A model generated the notes under the pieces. The model did not search any database. It was not told the DNA's origin and worked only from the letters and a program-made list of their open reading frames with translations. Of a stretch of 33,598 nucleotides of DNA, positions 16,826 through 33,064 are shown one piece after another. Origin of the DNA: a virus; the IMG/VR virus record IMGVR_UViG_3300009506_000126, positions 1 through 33,598 of that record; one strand, given 5' to 3'. Position numbers and translations under genes: made by a program. How positions within the stretch are numbered: the first letter of the stretch is position 1; the number at the start of each line of letters is the position of its first letter.

Positions 16826-17368
16826 TTACGCGCCGCTCGTGTATTCCACGATGACGGTATGCCGTGCTCCGACCGTCACACCGTTGAGGTAGGTGTAACA
16901 GAGGTCCATGTTGATTACCGGGTCGGCACTATAGGTCGTCACCGCTCCGAGGTTGACGAGTTCCCAGAGTGTGAGTCCGACGTCCTCGTCGTTCACGTTG
17001 GCATCTGTGAGCACGCGCTCGGTGAGTGCGTAACCCGCTGCCGCGTCGAGCCCGGAACCGAACAGTGTCCGGTCGAGGACCGCGCCATCGTTGTTGTCCC
17101 CGGTGGCGTAGATCCCCAGATCGACGGTCGTCAGCGCGGTTGCGGATCCGTCGCAACAATCGCGGATCGAAAAGATCCGGTCGCTGCTCTTGAGCGTGAG
17201 TAGACGCGCGACTTCGTCGTCTGCCACGGTTGACGCGCCCATGTCGATCTCGGCGCGCGAAATTCGCTTCCGCGAGTGCTTCTTTCCAGACGATGTCGCA
17301 GTTCTGGGATCGACGATCGCCTGGATGTCTACCCCGGTTCCGAAATGGTCGCTGTAGTGGACGGCCAT
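16826..17368 (-). CDS. Putative head decoration-like protein (paralogue of the 186-aa protein)
   Basis: 180 aa, the first gene downstream of the capsid gene. The N-terminal ~35 residues are basic and polar (SSGKKHSRKRISRAEID). The core DEVARLLTLKSSDRIFSI and GIYATGDNNDGAVLD match the protein encoded at 15729-16289. The C-terminus is YLNGVTVGARHTVIVEYTSGA. Position and abundance-type Shine-Dalgarno (GAGG, with ACGAGGAAAAC before the ATG) suggest a capsid-associated protein made in quantity. Decoration is an inference, and a tail-completion role is not excluded. Together with 15729-16289 it flanks the signal-peptide gene. Confidence 0.7.
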   Translation of the reverse strand: MAVHYSDHFGTGVDIQAIVDPRTATSSGKKHSRKRISRAEIDMGASTVADDEVARLLTLKSSDRIFSIRDCCDGSATALTTVDLGIYATGDNNDGAVLDRTLFGSGLDAAAGYALTERVLTDANVNDEDVGLTLWELVNLGAVTTYSADPVINMDLCYTYLNGVTVGARHTVIVEYTSGA

Positions 17369-17391
17369 GTTTTCCTCGTTTTGCCTTCAGC

Positions 17392-17435
17392 GAGGGATGG
17401 GAACCCACGCGACCCCGCGAGGGTTCCGCTCCCTC
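17392..17435 (-). terminator. Long hairpin directly downstream of the capsid gene
   Basis: Nested stem: GAGGGA (17392-17397) with TCCCTC (17430-17435), GGAACCC (17400-17406) with GGGTTCC (17421-17427), and CGCG (17408-17411) with CGCG (17416-17419), loop ACCC. That gives 17 base pairs in 44 nt, 6 nt after the capsid stop codon on the minus strand. No U-tract follows, so it is more likely a partial terminator, RNase site or 3'-end stabiliser for capsid mRNA. Confidence 0.5.
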
Positions 17436-17441
17436 AGTGTC

Positions 17442-18311
17442 TTACGTCTCGTCGTGCTTGACGCGCACCACGCCGTAGGGGTCCATGCGAGTTGCGCCAA
17501 TTCGCATCTCGTAGAACACCTGCGTCGAGTAGCGCTTCGTCGGCAGGCGGTCGATCTCGCCACGGGGGTTGATCCCAATGGCGAGCTTCATCGAGTCGCG
17601 TTGCCACGCGAAGCTGTCTCGCACGTCGTTGCCGTCGATCGCGCCACGCTCGCCACGAATGAACGTGAAGCCCAGCAGGGTGTTGACTTGACCAGCGACG
17701 AGCGCCCGGACGCTGTTGTAGTCGATGCTCTTCACCTCGTTTTGGTTGAGCAGGGACTCGATCCCGCTCGCGGAGGTGTAGAAGAACCGGTCGTCCTCCG
17801 GCACTTCCGCCTGGTCGAGTCGGCGCTTGGCCTCGATGACCTGCTCGATCTGGAGATTGAGCGGACCCGCGACCACCGCGACCTCCCGGTCTGCCGGGAA
17901 GGGCTCGGTGCCGGTGCCAGTCTGGCCCGTTGCCGCCGTGGCTGCGAAGGCTTCGAGGATGACATCGTCCATCGTACGCCCTGCGGCCATTGCGAACGCC
18001 TGCGTGTAGGCGTTGGTCGGGTCGTTGAGCACCTGGACCTTGTCGTCCGAATCGACGAGGTCGGCTACGTCCCATGACTCCAGCGTCACCATGCGCCGCG
18101 TGTGCGGCGTGTCGGTGTACTCGGTGTCGCCGTGGCGACTCGTGCGCTTGCTCATCGTGGTCGCGTTGAGCTGGTCGTAGTAGGCCCGGTCGCCGACGAC
18201 GCTTGGATCTACGCTGACCGCTCCCCGCAGCCGCGACATCTTCTGTTGTGCGAGATGCGTGATTCCGTCCGTGAATTGCTGGACGAAATGCTGGTCTACT
18301 GTTGCGGACAT
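17442..18311 (-). CDS. Major capsid protein
   Basis: 289 aa. It matches the pattern of the podophage-type capsid family (Phage_capsid_2-like, HK97 fold expected). It begins MSATVDQHFVQQFTDGITHLAQ then QKMSRLRGAVSVDPSVVGDRAYYDQL, followed by a TPHTRRMVTLESWDVADLVDSDDK segment and FAMAAGRTMDDVILEAFAATAATG ('a..R..Dd.ii.a..g.a.tG'). The C-terminal part has FYTSASGIESLLN and the final DPYGVVRVKHDET. It is preceded by scaffold and 125-aa genes and followed by the hairpin at 17392. The Shine-Dalgarno GGAGGGG is 8 nt before the ATG and is partly inside a hairpin (18319-18353). Confidence 0.92.
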   Translation of the reverse strand: MSATVDQHFVQQFTDGITHLAQQKMSRLRGAVSVDPSVVGDRAYYDQLNATTMSKRTSRHGDTEYTDTPHTRRMVTLESWDVADLVDSDDKVQVLNDPTNAYTQAFAMAAGRTMDDVILEAFAATAATGQTGTGTEPFPADREVAVVAGPLNLQIEQVIEAKRRLDQAEVPEDDRFFYTSASGIESLLNQNEVKSIDYNSVRALVAGQVNTLLGFTFIRGERGAIDGNDVRDSFAWQRDSMKLAIGINPRGEIDRLPTKRYSTQVFYEMRIGATRMDPYGVVRVKHDET

Positions 18312-24089: not shown

Positions 24090-24117
24090 AACGGCACGCC
24101 CTCCGCGTGAGACGACC

Positions 24118-24756
24118 TTGCCGCGAGAGCCGATTCCCGAAGATTCTGTCAGCTACCAGCTCCATCCCGACAGCTACGAGCCCGTCGAGACGGGTGGCCG
24201 CTGGTTCAACATGCCGGGTCGCCATCCCGTGACGGGCCAGGTCTTCAACGAGGACCAGGCAGTCGATTTCGCGCTCGAAAACGGGCTGCTTGGAATCGGC
24301 TACGACTCCGTCGACCAGGCCGTGCAGGCCGCGGTCACGCGCGCCGAGCTGGGCGACGAGAATCCACTCGTCGCGAATCGACGCGAGCTGCCCTTCAATC
24401 CCGGTGGACGCGCACTCGACGGGTTCCTGTATCCCGAGCTGGACACCCCGCTGATGGAGACCGCGATCGTAAGATCGGGCCGAGATCGCGAGATGCAGTC
24501 GAACTTCGAGAAAGGCGTGATCCAGCGCGCGATCGCGCGACCGCCCGAAGAGGTGCAGACGATCCTTGGCGAGCACTGGCTCGACGTGGCGAACGACGCG
24601 ATGAAGACGCTGATCGGGGAGGCTCCGCTCTATCCCGCGCGCGCTCCAGGAAGCGAGCAGAGCTACACGTTCGAGCGCTTCGACGCGAGCGGACGCCGCC
24701 TGCTGCGCTACTCGGACCGGCCCGAGCCGCAGCCCGGCGAGCAGAGGATTCCCTGA
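24118..24756 (+). CDS. Unknown protein with virion-type 'GRHPVTGQ' segment, divergent to terminase
   Basis: 212 aa if started at TTG 24118 (a GAG lies 7 nt upstream). The frame is open from 24040, but that would overlap terS, and ATG 24208 would remove the best motif. Residues ~31-75 include GGRWFNMPGRHPVTGQVFNEDQA then YDSVDQAVQAAVTRAEL, resembling segments found in phage internal virion proteins ('gWyNiP...gGk..t.eeA......g..f.sfdSv.eA...A..rs'). The rest is charged and has no recognised catalytic motif. It is co-transcribed with the next gene (TGATG). The likely role is a virion or ejection accessory, inferred only from that segment. Confidence 0.65.
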   Translation: MPREPIPEDSVSYQLHPDSYEPVETGGRWFNMPGRHPVTGQVFNEDQAVDFALENGLLGIGYDSVDQAVQAAVTRAELGDENPLVANRRELPFNPGGRALDGFLYPELDTPLMETAIVRSGRDREMQSNFEKGVIQRAIARPPEEVQTILGEHWLDVANDAMKTLIGEAPLYPARAPGSEQSYTFERFDASGRRLLRYSDRPEPQPGEQRIP

Positions 24757-25838
24757 TGGCGCGCGTAAAGCTCGGCATCGAGCGCGAGCCGACCAACGTG
24801 TTGATCGGCGAGCCGAAGGAAGAAGAGGCGCTGCGGCTCTCTCGGCTGCTGCTTCCGGGGCCCGGCTCGCGGGAGGCGCTCAATATCGCTTCAGAGAGCG
24901 ACGTGCGAAAGCGCCAGGGCGTCGGGCTCGTCGGACCCGAGAAGGCCGAGGCCGCGTTGCGGCTATCGAAGCTCCAGAATCCGGTCGAGCAGCTCATCCT
25001 GACGCCTGCCCAGAAGGCGAGCCCGGAGCGCGAAGAGGCGGTCCTTTCTCGCCGCGCGAGCACCGAGGCGCTACTGGGACTTACGCAGGGCTCCATCTCG
25101 AAAGTCGGTGGCGAGTTCGGGCCCGTGACCGAGGCCTTCGCATCGGGCAGTGGGACCGGGCCGATCGGCAAGGCGCTGCGCGCCGAGGGCGCTTTCGACG
25201 ATGTCCAGATCTTCCAGTCGATCGAGGATTTCGAGCTGTCGCCCAGCCAGCGCAAGCGCTACGACGAGCTGGTCGCAAAGGGCGAGATCGATCCCAACCG
25301 GGTCTTTGCGGCTTCGCGTCGCCAGTCCACCGAGGACGGGCTCGCGAACCTCCAGCGCTTCTTGGAGCCGATCGCGTTTTCCAGGGGTGGACTCTTCTCG
25401 GGGCTTTCGGGCTCGGGAATCACGGTGGACCAGGCCATCGAGATCGTGGTGGGAAACGATCGCGAGGGAGTCTCGCGCTTCAATCCGGTCACGGGCTTCA
25501 CATGGACCGCGGACGAGATTCGCGCGGCCAACGAGTACGCGCGTCTTTATCAGCAGTACCAGGGGTTTGCGTCGACTGGCTTCAACAGGCTGCGACCCAC
25601 GTCGCAAGGCTCCCAGCTCGAAGACCTGCTTTCGTTCCAGAAGGTGCCCGAGGGCGAGTTCGGGACCAACCGTTTTGGCGCGCGCAAGGAGCGGCGCCGC
25701 GAGGACGAGCTTCTCAATGCGCTCACGCTCGAAGAGCTGATCCAGGTCCAGGAGCTTGTTACGGGTCGCTCGCGGCGGGTGGGCAACACCCGGCGTTCCG
25801 CGCAGCCACAGCCCACGCTCTCCCAAACGTTGCTATAG
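24756..25838 (+). CDS. Unknown 360-aa protein coupled to the preceding gene
   Basis: It begins at an ATG overlapping the previous stop by one base. Two related charged helices occur near the N-terminus (EEEALRLSRLLLPGPG and KAEAALRLSKLQNPVEQ). The middle has a Gly/Ser-rich segment (EAFASGSGTGPIGKALR). The segment RAANEYARLYQQYQGFASTG (about residues 256-275) is encoded by a 59-bp stretch that recurs 590 bp downstream in different coding context. No membrane segments, no recognised domain. The C-terminal 20 residues are Arg/Gln/Thr-rich. Codon third positions are strongly G/C like the structural genes. Confidence 0.7.
   Translation: MARVKLGIEREPTNVLIGEPKEEEALRLSRLLLPGPGSREALNIASESDVRKRQGVGLVGPEKAEAALRLSKLQNPVEQLILTPAQKASPEREEAVLSRRASTEALLGLTQGSISKVGGEFGPVTEAFASGSGTGPIGKALRAEGAFDDVQIFQSIEDFELSPSQRKRYDELVAKGEIDPNRVFAASRRQSTEDGLANLQRFLEPIAFSRGGLFSGLSGSGITVDQAIEIVVGNDREGVSRFNPVTGFTWTADEIRAANEYARLYQQYQGFASTGFNRLRPTSQGSQLEDLLSFQKVPEGEFGTNRFGARKERRREDELLNALTLEELIQVQELVTGRSRRVGNTRRSAQPQPTLSQTLL
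25521..25579 (+). repeat. 59-bp imperfect direct repeat, copy 1
   Basis: 56 of 59 bases match 26111-26169 (differences: one a/t, one g/a, one t/g). Copy 1 lies inside the 360-aa gene and encodes RAANEYARLYQQYQGFASTG there. Confidence 0.9.
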
Positions 25839-25938
25839 TCCTGGTGTTGGCGGGGGCCGGGCACGTCGCTTGTCAGGCCCCCCAGACGGCCATGCGATTA
25901 CTGGTCCCCGCCTGAATCTTCCTCCTGGAGATTCCCAA

Positions 25939-26217
25939 GTGGCCGAGTTCTTCTTTGGCCTGCTCGTTGGAGCGGGCGCGCTCTGGTGGTTCGTGCTGGT
26001 CGGGCGCAACCACCCGGATTATCGAGCTTTTGCGTTTCGCTTTGGTGCGCTCTGGCATCGTAACTGCACCAACTGCGGACACGGCTTCGTGGAGCATTTC
26101 GCGAGGCCACCGCGCGGCCAACGAGTACGCGCGTCTTTTTCAACAGTACCAGGGGTGTGCGTCGACTGGACGCCGGGCTGCTCGCACCAGGATTGTAAAT
26201 GCCCGCGTTTTCAGTAG
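25939..26217 (+). CDS. Small membrane protein with Cys-rich (zinc-like) end
   Basis: 92 aa from GTG at 25939, with GGAG 9 nt upstream. Residues ~4-22 (FFFGLLVGAGALWWFVLVG) form one membrane segment. Then come CTNCGHGFVEH and a C-terminal CVDWTPGCSHQDCKCPRF, a layout resembling small Cys4/Cys-His zinc-binding proteins that have 'C..CGH...H.........C.C..F'. The part between (RGQRVRASFSTVPGVCVDW) is encoded by copy 2 of the 59-bp repeat, read in a different frame from copy 1. Frame ends 100 nt before the holin-like gene. Reality of the C-terminal half is uncertain because the repeat could be a recent insertion. Confidence 0.55.
   Translation: MAEFFFGLLVGAGALWWFVLVGRNHPDYRAFAFRFGALWHRNCTNCGHGFVEHFARPPRGQRVRASFSTVPGVCVDWTPGCSHQDCKCPRFQ
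26111..26169 (+). repeat. 59-bp imperfect direct repeat, copy 2
   Basis: It matches 25521-25579 at 56 of 59 bases with 590 bp between copies (not a multiple of three). In the 92-aa gene it is read in the +2 frame relative to copy 1. Confidence 0.9.
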
Positions 26218-26317
26218 GCTTTTGGCGCATGCAGGAGTTGGCGGGCGGTGTCGGATTCCTTCGCTCTTCCAGGGCCGAGCAGGACTCATCCCCCACGACA
26301 CCGCTCGCCCCCCCCAT

Positions 26318-26632
26318 ATGAAGCTGCGCGAGTGCGCCAACGCCGCGTTCCACACCGCCGGTGGGTGTGCGCTGGCGTCCACCGTCGTGTGGTCCTCCTG
26401 GTTCGCAGTCCTGGTCGTGTTCGTCTTCGCCGCGCTGCGCGAGCAGGCGCAGCATCGATTGAGGTTGGAAGAGCACCACTATCTTTCGCGCGAAGCCGGG
26501 CATCCGGTATACATCGTCGAGAAGCGCGGCTTCTTCGATTGGAGCTGGTTTCGGTGGAAGCACGCTTTCGAGATCGCCGAGTGGACGCTGGGCGCCGCGG
26601 GCGGCGTCGGCCTTGCGAAGCTGCTTTGGTAG
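26318..26632 (+). CDS. Holin-like small membrane protein
   Basis: 104 aa from ATG at 26318. Two membrane segments: residues ~20-42 (STVVWSSWFAVLVVFVFAAL) and ~85-104 (AEWTLGAAGGVGLAKLLW), with a charged middle containing REQAQHR and FDWSWFRWKHAFEIAEW. The 'RE.aQhr ... w.r..e...w..ga..g' pattern is seen in small phage membrane proteins of lysis regions. No endolysin is visible in this window, so a holin role is tentative. The Shine-Dalgarno is poor (C-rich leader). The same frame is open upstream to 25955 but reads through the repeat, so I do not extend it. Confidence 0.6.
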   Translation: MKLRECANAAFHTAGGCALASTVVWSSWFAVLVVFVFAALREQAQHRLRLEEHHYLSREAGHPVYIVEKRGFFDWSWFRWKHAFEIAEWTLGAAGGVGLAKLLW

Positions 26633-26850
26633 CGGGGGGCGGGGAGGATCCCGAATCGTCGCGGGGGGGAGACTCGTGATGACTGGTGGGATTTCCCCCG
26701 CCTCCCCAGGCTGCACCCTTTTCTCCTTTTTCTGACGCACCTCCACCCTCGCTGCATCTTTTGGCTGCGGGGGGTTTCACCACGCCACATTCGGTTGCGT
26801 TGACGCGCGCGCGGTCTTGAGGCAGGTTCGCCGCAGGTTCGGGGGAACCG

Positions 26851-27173
26851 TGGTCCTGTTTTGCGATCCGATCAAGGTCAAGATCCGCTTGCGCACGGGA
26901 GAGGTGGGCGTCGTCCACCTGGTCCCCCCGTATACGAGCTGCTGGCCAATGGCCGCATTCTCGGGAGGATCTCGTCGGAGGTGAGGCTGGCGCGGCAGGG
27001 GTCGCCAGCGCACGCAACGTGACCCGCGCACCGGAAGGAGCTGGTCGAGCAGCACGAGGGCAGCTTCCCGGTATCGAGATAAGTTGAAGCGCGGCAAACG
27101 ACGGCCAAGGAAACGAGCGGGCGACCCTCTCGAATCTGGAAACAAGCCGTCGCCACTTCCGATGAGCGCATAG
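26851..27173 (+). pseudogene. Small gene with a -1 frameshift at a C6 run and an in-frame TGA
   Basis: From GTG 26851 (GGGGGA upstream) the frame reads VVLFCDPIKVKIRLRTGEVG then VVHLVPP with almost all third positions G or C. At the run of six C (26925-26930) the coding signal moves to the -1 frame: VYELLANGRILGRISSEVRL then ARQGSPAHAT, TGA at 27021-27023, and after it PAHRKELVEQHEAASRYRDK then LKRGKRRPRKRAGDPLESGN, ending at TAG 27171-27173. Together this is about 107 residues with a basic C-terminus. Family not recognised. Either a decayed gene or one using recoding; two disruptions favour decay or sequence errors. Staying in the first frame would give only a 44-aa product ending at 26985. 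Confidence 0.45.
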
Positions 27174-27740
27174 CGACTGCCGCCGCCAGGCTTTTTGAAA
27201 GCCATCCCACCTACGTTAAAGGCCCGCGTTGCGTTCGCTGAGCGGGTCTTATCTCTTCTCTGTTAAACAGCTTAGTGTCAAGCGTTTCGATCTCTGCGGT
27301 ACTCCCAGAGAGCTACTCAGACGCTTTGCAGAAAGAGACGGCGGGGGTATCCCCCCCGTCGACTCTATAGCGAGCGCGCGGCGCTCGGACGGCAGCTTCG
27401 CTGCACGTCTTCGCTTCGCACCGACGGGAGTAACGCTCGCGAGTGTGCTACGCACACACTCGCTCGCGCCTGCAAAGCTATGCATGATACGCGCATCTGT
27501 GTGACTACACGATGCACGTGCGCTCTGTCGCTACGCCGTATAACCCACGCAGCGCAGCTTTCAGCCCGCTAAGCGGACCCGCTGAAAACCCGTCGCATAC
27601 CCGCCACGGCCCGAAGTGTGCCTCGCGCTCTGCGCTCGGCGACAGCTCGCGCGCCAAGGCGCGCTCGAAAGACCACCGATCCCTGCGGGGCGAGGCAGCC
27701 GCGCTTCGCTTGGCTGCCTTCTAAACGCGAGGGAGACGAA
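27174..27740. other. Non-coding stretch with several hairpins
   Basis: No ORF here shows convincing coding bias or a ribosome site. Visible structures: GCGAGTGTG/CACACTCGC (27440-27448 with 27456-27464, 7-nt loop); TTTCAGC-CCGC-TAA-GCGG-ACCC-GCTGAAA (27559-27... i.e. 27559-27587); AGGCAGCC/GGCTGCCT (27693-27700 with 27712-27719) directly ahead of the next gene. Several short CTTCGC repeats are scattered. I see no tRNA. Confidence 0.6.
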
Positions 27741-28270: not shown

Positions 28271-28306
28271 CCGCAGGAGCGTATCCTCGACGGATACGCT
28301 CCAACC
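28271..28306. repeat. 36-bp perfect direct repeat containing an 11-bp hairpin, copy 1
   Basis: Identical to 28488-28523. The core is GGAGCGTATCC (28276-28286), loop TCGAC, GGATACGCTCC (28292-28302): a perfect stem. Copies are 217 bp apart and in the same orientation. Confidence 0.95.
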
Positions 28307-28487: not shown

Positions 28488-28523
28488 CCGCAGGAGCGTA
28501 TCCTCGACGGATACGCTCCAACC
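28488..28523. repeat. 36-bp perfect direct repeat containing an 11-bp hairpin, copy 2
   Basis: Second copy of 28271-28306. Stem arms 28493-28503 and 28509-28519. Sequence between the copies is also hairpin-rich and GC-rich. Confidence 0.95.
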
Positions 28524-28590
28524 TCAAAACCTCAAAAGCACACACACACGGAAAGCTGTGCTTGGTTGAGTCCTCACTCATGAGCATCCC

Positions 28591-28626
28591 TGATTTCCTC
28601 CCCACTTTTCGTGAGGGAGGAAATCA
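28591..28626 (+). promoter_or_regulatory. Hairpin sequestering a strong Shine-Dalgarno and start codon
   Basis: TGATTTCCTCCC (28591-28602) pairs perfectly with GGGAGGAAATCA (28615-28626). The pairing extends by CAC/GTG past one bulged A, loop TTTTC. The 3' arm contains GGGAGG and the A of an ATG at 28626. The ORF from this ATG runs out of frame through the 123-aa gene and into the frame of the 89-aa gene. Confidence 0.6.
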
Positions 28627-28725
28627 TGGCTGCTCATTCGCTTGCGGGCTCAACACCGTGCCGGACAGCCCGGTGCGGCTGCGCCGCAGCAGCAGCCAGA
28701 TGCACCTCCGAAGGAGAAGTCGAAA

Positions 28726-29366: not shown

Positions 29367-29415
29367 CTTCGGGGCGGCGGCGCCCGCGGGCTTCGCCCGC
29401 GGGCGCCTTTTTTTT
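29354..29415 (+). terminator. Tandem hairpin and rho-independent terminator
   Basis: First hairpin: CCGAAGTC (29354-29361) with GACTTCGG (29365-29372). Second: GGCGCCCGCGGGC (29379-29391) with GCCCGCGGGCGCC (29395-29407), a perfect 13-bp stem with a 3-nt loop, followed by eight T (29408-29415). Classic intrinsic terminator for the plus strand. Confidence 0.92.
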
Positions 29416-32212: not shown

Positions 32213-32319
32213 CCTGGCCTTCCCTTTCCGAAGAAGATCACGAGCGGCTCGCCGAGGAGCGCGAGCTGCGTGACCACCTCTCAGATGCACCGTTCTGGGA
32301 GAAACCGACAAGGAGGTAG
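32044..32319 (+). CDS. 91-aa Cys/His-containing protein
   Basis: ATG at 32044 with AAGGAG 10 nt upstream. After a polar start it has FCPHREGCRGELRKVIVELE then TYLCARHYVELAQAP, suggesting a zinc-binding C..H...C....C..H cluster, and an acidic helical tail (LSEEDHERLAEERELRDHLS). Coding bias is strongest in the second half. It ends 4 nt before the ERF gene start. The long overlap with the previous ORF suggests either nested genes or a frameshifted single gene. Confidence 0.6.
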   Translation: MSGSRPRDRDERSNGSAFCPHREGCRGELRKVIVELETYLCARHYVELAQAPGAELTWPSLSEEDHERLAEERELRDHLSDAPFWEKPTRR

Positions 32320-32323
32320 ACGA

Positions 32324-33064
32324 GTGGAATATCCGAAGAAGATCATCGAGGCGATCGCGCAGGTGCGCGACAGCGTCGAGACCGTCCAGAAGGACGGCGT
32401 CAACGCGCACTTCGGCTATCGGTATGTGACCGAGCGCGGCATCCAGGCCGCGCTGCGCCCGCTGCTCAAGGAAGCGGGATTGGTCATCATTCCGAGCGCT
32501 GTCGACCAGGTGCTCTCCGTCGATTCTGACGGGAACTTCTGTTACATGGCGAGCTTCACGCTCTGCCATGTCGACGGCGACGTGTGGCCCGAGAAGGTGC
32601 TGGTTCCCGCGCAGGACAAGGGAGACAAGGCGCCCTGGAAGGCCAATACGGGAGCCATGAAGTACCTGCTCAATCGGCTGTTCATGCTCGACACGGGAGA
32701 CGATCCCGAGGGCGAGCATGACAGCGCGAAGCAGGAGCCACGCCGCAGACCGGCGCCCCAGCGACAGGAAAATCCCAACATCCAGCGCTCGCCACAGAGC
32801 GGGGGAGGGCGTTTCCTGACGCGGTCAAACCCGCTGATTGACAAGAAGTTCTGGGGCAAGGCCTTCGGTGTGTCCGAGGCCGTTCACGGCAAGGACAAGG
32901 CGATGCGCTTCACGGCGCTCGACCGCTGTGTCCAGGAGATGGGCTACAAGCGCCTGGACAACGTGCCGGAAGACCAGTTCGACGAGCTGTGCAGCATGCT
33001 GGACAGCTATCAGACCTGGTGGAACGACCCGCACGCGGGAGACGACGACGCACCGCCGTTTTGA
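32324..33064 (+). CDS. ERF-family single-strand annealing protein
   Basis: 246 aa from GTG at 32324 (GGAGG 8 nt upstream). The ERF signature is clear: KDGVNAHFGYRYVTERGIQA (residues ~24-43), LLKEAGLVIIPSA, then GAMKYLLNRLFMLDTGDDPE (~108-127), matching 'K...n..f.Y.Yv....i...i.p.l...gl' and 'ayKyal.~~f~i.tgDD.e'. The middle is disordered and basic (EPRRRPAPQRQENP) and the C-terminus resembles a helical substrate-binding tail ending DDDAPPF, similar to an SSB-type acidic end. ERF proteins pair complementary single strands in phage recombination. The next gene is the expected exonuclease partner. Confidence 0.9.
   Translation: MEYPKKIIEAIAQVRDSVETVQKDGVNAHFGYRYVTERGIQAALRPLLKEAGLVIIPSAVDQVLSVDSDGNFCYMASFTLCHVDGDVWPEKVLVPAQDKGDKAPWKANTGAMKYLLNRLFMLDTGDDPEGEHDSAKQEPRRRPAPQRQENPNIQRSPQSGGGRFLTRSNPLIDKKFWGKAFGVSEAVHGKDKAMRFTALDRCVQEMGYKRLDNVPEDQFDELCSMLDSYQTWWNDPHAGDDDAPPF

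Follow-up and report, generated by a model that had tools for sequence, protein, structure and literature searches.

Probable out-of-frame copying of a 59-bp fragment of one phage gene into a small downstream reading frame

We found that a 59-bp piece from the interior of the phage gene p360 has very probably been copied once about 0.53 kb downstream into the frame of the small predicted gene p92, leaving the donor unchanged. Most likely this was a templated insertion, that is, an ordinary copying accident and not a new genetic element or a DNA signal. Both copies lie in a window of 33,598 nt (the whole stretch of DNA that was analysed), which is a single linear contig of an uncultivated virus. 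It is a clean case, in which the direction can be regarded as established, of a phage gaining a potential new peptide when a gene fragment is pasted elsewhere and read in a different frame.

On the - strand, the window has a block of head and tail genes of podovirus type (portal phrog_332, E = 3e-116; terminase; tail protein phrog_376), and among described phages its portal is nearest to those of HTVC010P-type Pelagibacter phages (32-36% identity). Both copies of the repeat are located in + strand genes immediately beyond the point from which the terminase operon starts divergently, where the gene order is p238, p360, p92 and p105 (Table 1). The first two genes constitute a conserved pair common to the clade, divergent from the small terminase gene and present also in the related contigs L076 (5311-6661) and L080 (2217-3974). 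Neither p238 nor p360 has a significant match in Pfam or PHROGs, and the AlphaFold model of p360 (pLDDT 35) is too low in confidence for use. Genes for an Erf-like annealing protein and an exonuclease-VIII-like protein are both found at the right end of the window. Elsewhere, an uncertain tRNA (anticodon gcct) was reported by ARAGORN at 17347-17443, immediately 3' of gene 17442-18311 on the minus strand, and is probably spurious.

Table 1. Positions of the repeat copies, their junctions and the genes discussed in the text.
Feature	Position	Strand	Description
p238	24112-24756	+	Uncharacterised, conserved; homologues in L076 and L080
Donor gene p360	24756-25838	+	360 aa, uncharacterised; coding score +121 bits; adjoins the divergent terminase genes
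Left junction, donor side	25518-25530	+	ATTCGCGCGGCCA; 11/13 match to 26097-26109
Copy 1 (donor)	25521-25579	+	Codons 256-274 of p360 plus two bases; assigned from the 56/59 match, codon score and L080 homology
Recipient frame p92	25939-26217	+	92 aa, predicted; GTG start, TGGAG upstream
Left junction, recipient side	26097-26109	+	TTTCGCGAGGCCA, directly before copy 2; candidate microhomology
Copy 2 (probable pasted copy)	26111-26169	+	Read in another frame in p92; residues 59-77, RGQRVRASFSTVPGVCVDW
p105 (next gene)	26318-26632	+	104-aa protein with a hydrophobic stretch; codon score +27 bits
Erf-like annealing protein gene	32270-33064		phrog_155, E = 4.6e-29

Self-comparison of the window bears out the two copies noticed in a preliminary description of this DNA, as they are identical at 56 of 59 positions without gaps (E = 9.5e-20 in a self-BLAST of the 33,598-nt window) and their starts are 590 bp apart, a spacing not divisible by three. 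The peptides given there were also correct, with copy 1 encoding RAANEYARLYQQYQG in the p360 frame and copy 2 encoding RVRASFSTVPGVCVDW in the different frame of the next gene, p92. The longest exact run in the repeat is 28 nt, compared with 14-17 nt when the window was simulated 40 times with a first-order Markov model, and self-comparison revealed no third copy anywhere in the window. The three differing bases, which are substitutions only, comprise one synonymous and two non-synonymous changes in either frame. That the contig is a single one from an uncultivated virus would leave room for an assembly artefact in the metagenome, but a false join at an identical word does not fit with copies that differ at three sites and match exactly over no more than 28 nt, and we consider an artefact extremely unlikely.

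The likeness of the copies ends abruptly on both sides of the 59 bp, and alignments anchored on the repeat gave the flanks no more similarity than random pairs have (upstream P = 0.22, downstream P = 0.60). These flanks bear on the idea of a remnant of a larger tandem duplication that has diverged except for the 59 bp, perhaps kept alike there by gene conversion. The same strand, the short distance and a weak upstream likeness seen by eye (ACGGGCTTC / ACGGCTTC) would agree with such a remnant, but besides the chance-level flanks, a duplicate in decay should not drop so sharply from 95% to background, which makes this origin of the repeat highly improbable.

The proposal that copy 1 is the source, as native p360 coding sequence, and copy 2 the pasted copy, read in another frame, is well supported, because the codons of copy 1 look native in the p360 frame, a relative has an ungapped p360 homologue, and the codons of copy 2 look like those of a wrong frame. 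Codons were scored against eleven confident genes of the same phage, and the wrong frames of these genes served as control. In the p360 frame, copy 1 scored +8.5 bits over 19 codons, which is the 34th percentile of true-frame windows and exceeds virtually all open wrong-frame windows; copy 2 in the p92 frame scored -11.7 bits, lower than almost every true-frame window and typical of wrong frames. When only synonymous choice was scored, which is stricter, the order was the same but with less force. With this score, copy 1 was at the 8th percentile of true-frame windows, a less sharp separation, and the p92 codons before the copy, copy 2 itself and the p92 codons after it were at the 99th, 65th and 90th percentiles of wrong-frame windows, respectively, so that the p92 codons around the copy resemble coding sequence more than the copy does.

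The relevant relatives, L076 and L080, are viral contigs reached through terminase and p238 alignments. L076 has p238 and p360 homologues, the latter aligning at 42% up to residue 239, where the contig breaks off 17 codons before copy 1. L080 (terminase 68%) has homologues of p238 and p360, the latter of 355 aa (34% over 321 aa), and with it p360 aligns ungapped from GSGIT (residue 219) through copy 1, with 26/57 residues identical. Over the copy-1 segment itself, 5 of 19 residues are identical, and the BLOSUM62 score is equalled by 0.3% of shuffles. Since this alignment passes through the segment ungapped, copy 1 is part of p360 itself and not an insert in it. The earlier suggestion that a gene fragment was copied is thus retained, and the codon statistics and the gapless L080 homologue add a direction, from p360 to the downstream gene.

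The L080 homologue also informs on the differing bases. The codon for F271 is TTT in copy 1 and in L080 and TGT in copy 2, and by this comparison the base difference is polarised, with the change on the copy 2 side. Y265 is a second of the three differing sites, and here L080 shares F with copy 2, a weak hint of a subsequent change in copy 1. This agreement at Y265, together with the Cys that copy 2 gives within the Cys/His-rich segment of p92, would be in line with the reverse direction, in which copy 2 was the original and was put in frame into p360, but that direction is largely refuted by L080, where the p360 homologue has the segment at the same place, and the codon usage of the segment fits the p360 frame only; we therefore regard it as very unlikely.

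L080 has no p92 homologue, and other genes follow its p360 homologue. Among the contigs searched for p92 homologues, an empty p92 site was not found in relatives, and the insertion was not directly seen. As single queries, p360, p92 and Erf retrieved no relatives from the viral contigs, and the p360 alignment had no match in the sampled bacterial and archaeal genomes. An upstream protein of another contig, L005, was considered as a distant p360 relative and rejected, as the similarity was not significant.

The recipient frame p92 has nine Cys/His residues, arranged as C43-x2-C46-G-H48...H53...C74...C81-x-H83-x2-C86-x-C88-x2-F, after a predicted N-terminal helix (residues 2-24, pLDDT about 80; the remainder of the predicted structure is low). 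We take this pattern to be reminiscent of small zinc-binding proteins, and p92 may putatively bind metal. Copy 2 supplies about 19 residues between H53 and C81, C74 included, and after it the frame goes on for 15 residues, TPGCSHQDCKCPRFQ, three Cys among them. In this predicted frame copy 2 is an internal insert and not a new C-terminus; the part of the preliminary description in which the fragment was overprinted into a new C-terminus is hence not quite accurate, nor is use in both frames demonstrated for any one stretch.

Because the remaining Cys/His residues still form two clusters without copy 2, the copy may just lengthen a loop of predicted p92. We find it unlikely that the out-of-frame copy is now useful to putative p92 by supplying C74 to the predicted metal-binding Cys/His cluster; if it were, a phage protein would have gained a working segment by new-frame reading of a pasted fragment of a neighbouring gene. 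Searches with p92 gave no match in Pfam and PHROGs, and p92 without the copy gave nothing significant in Pfam, PHROGs, phages and plasmids, the weak matches being unconvincing as relatives by eye. The Cys/His pattern, searched as a regular expression, was absent from 1.13 million six-frame residues of related loci.

Copy 2 is open in two frames, as the frame of the donor (RAANEYARLFQQYQGCASTG) is likewise uninterrupted there, inside a 225-aa ORF (25955-26632) in which the p105 frame runs open upstream through copy 2. Codon usage disfavours this ORF at copy 2, and its codons beside the copy, before p105, scored -30 and -21 bits, which speaks against the ORF upstream of 26318. No p105 homologue was found in near relatives. 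Downstream of these genes, positions 26640-27700 form about 1 kb without any frame of sustained phage-like codon usage.

The 59 bp could also have been kept in two copies as an element acting at the DNA or RNA level (an att core, a packaging or replication signal, or a regulatory site), and a recombination, att-type or packaging site had indeed been offered in the preliminary description. Near-identity, a shared strand, and a 6-bp CGCGCG stem and ACGCGCGT palindrome in each copy would agree with such an element, but the fold z-scores of the copies are only -0.28 and -0.10, no better than shuffles, copy 1 is an ordinary coding stretch, and L080 has no DNA match to the repeat, including at copy 1. 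The exact repeat sequence was absent from the viral contigs and from the sampled bacterial and archaeal genomes, and a loose search of phage and plasmid records gave only chance matches of 20-30 bp. Multiple dispersed copies were likewise not found, with only two in the window and none in the viral, bacterial/archaeal, phage and plasmid collections searched. Folds compared with shuffles revealed no terminal inverted repeats or strong stem-loop of a palindromic or MITE-like type, and Rfam and tRNA scans gave nothing relevant. We judge an element of this sort very improbable; the repeat can be explained without a function at the DNA level, for which we see no support, and a signal private to this phage would be compatible with the searches.

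For the templated insertion that we favour, the features seen are a near-identical copy with the donor in its native place and unrelated flanks. The insertion would have occurred within the small Cys/His-rich frame p92, or created part of it, in a different frame. Copying may have proceeded by one template switch or strand annealing at the short match TTCGCG(A/C)GGCCA, possibly with the aid of the Erf-like annealing protein that the phage encodes. The 11/13 match at the left junction is equalled by 0.27% of random recipient sites, a value that is suggestive only, as the site was chosen after looking, and the 7/8 match at the right junction, which 16% of random sites attain, is not unusual. For copied segments, a model in which strands anneal at microhomology and the template is switched is well established (PMC2621351), and diverged substrates are tolerated by Erf and other phage recombinases of the Rad52-like type (PMC3945230). 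Copy 2 would then have persisted because it lies in a tolerant loop between the two Cys/His clusters and the frame is still open.

Such events look uncommon, because in 1.07 Mb of related contigs we recognised no similar case of two genes sharing a dispersed copy out of frame. The direct repeats in these loci are mostly longer repeat arrays, and the two shortest that were read proved to be a degenerate repeat run in which most frames have stops and a proline-rich repeat that is in frame. A terminase-related contig (L010, 5239-5373) has a 41-bp exact repeat, 94 bp apart, in a longer degenerate-repeat run. The window itself holds, in a poorly coding stretch, a perfect 36-bp direct repeat (28271-28306 and 28488-28523), each copy of which is a hairpin whose 11-bp stem is perfect (GGAGCGTATCC-TCGAC-GGATACGCTCC; DNA fold z -6.4 and -4.6); it was absent from related loci and had no credible plasmid match. 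The same stretch includes a 90-bp imperfect palindrome (28565-28654) and, at 29379-29407, an all-GC stem of 13 pairs and, after it, TTTTTTTT, which together resemble a strong terminator on the + strand.

Templated insertion of a gene fragment is an event type already known, and no new mechanism is needed. As in overprinting and overlapping genes (PMC4683798, PMC8227390), peptides in two frames can come from one nucleotide sequence; overprinting concerns one locus, whereas here the frames are split over two copies and the use of the second frame is putative. The Rickettsia palindromic elements and small mobile repeats in reading frames (PMC2229807) resemble our case in that a short DNA becomes a peptide insert, but they are multi-copy, palindromic and 105-146 bp long, while in the repeat described here one copy is part of a native gene, and there are no terminal inverted repeats and no family. 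Closer are template switching and microhomology-mediated break-induced replication, and the templated insertions described with them (PMC2621351; PMC8421209). Those insertions come from human and yeast cells, while in this phage the mechanism is inferred; in both, a short stretch from close by is pasted elsewhere in near-identical form, the donor is kept, and the flanks are unrelated with a possible short match at the junction.
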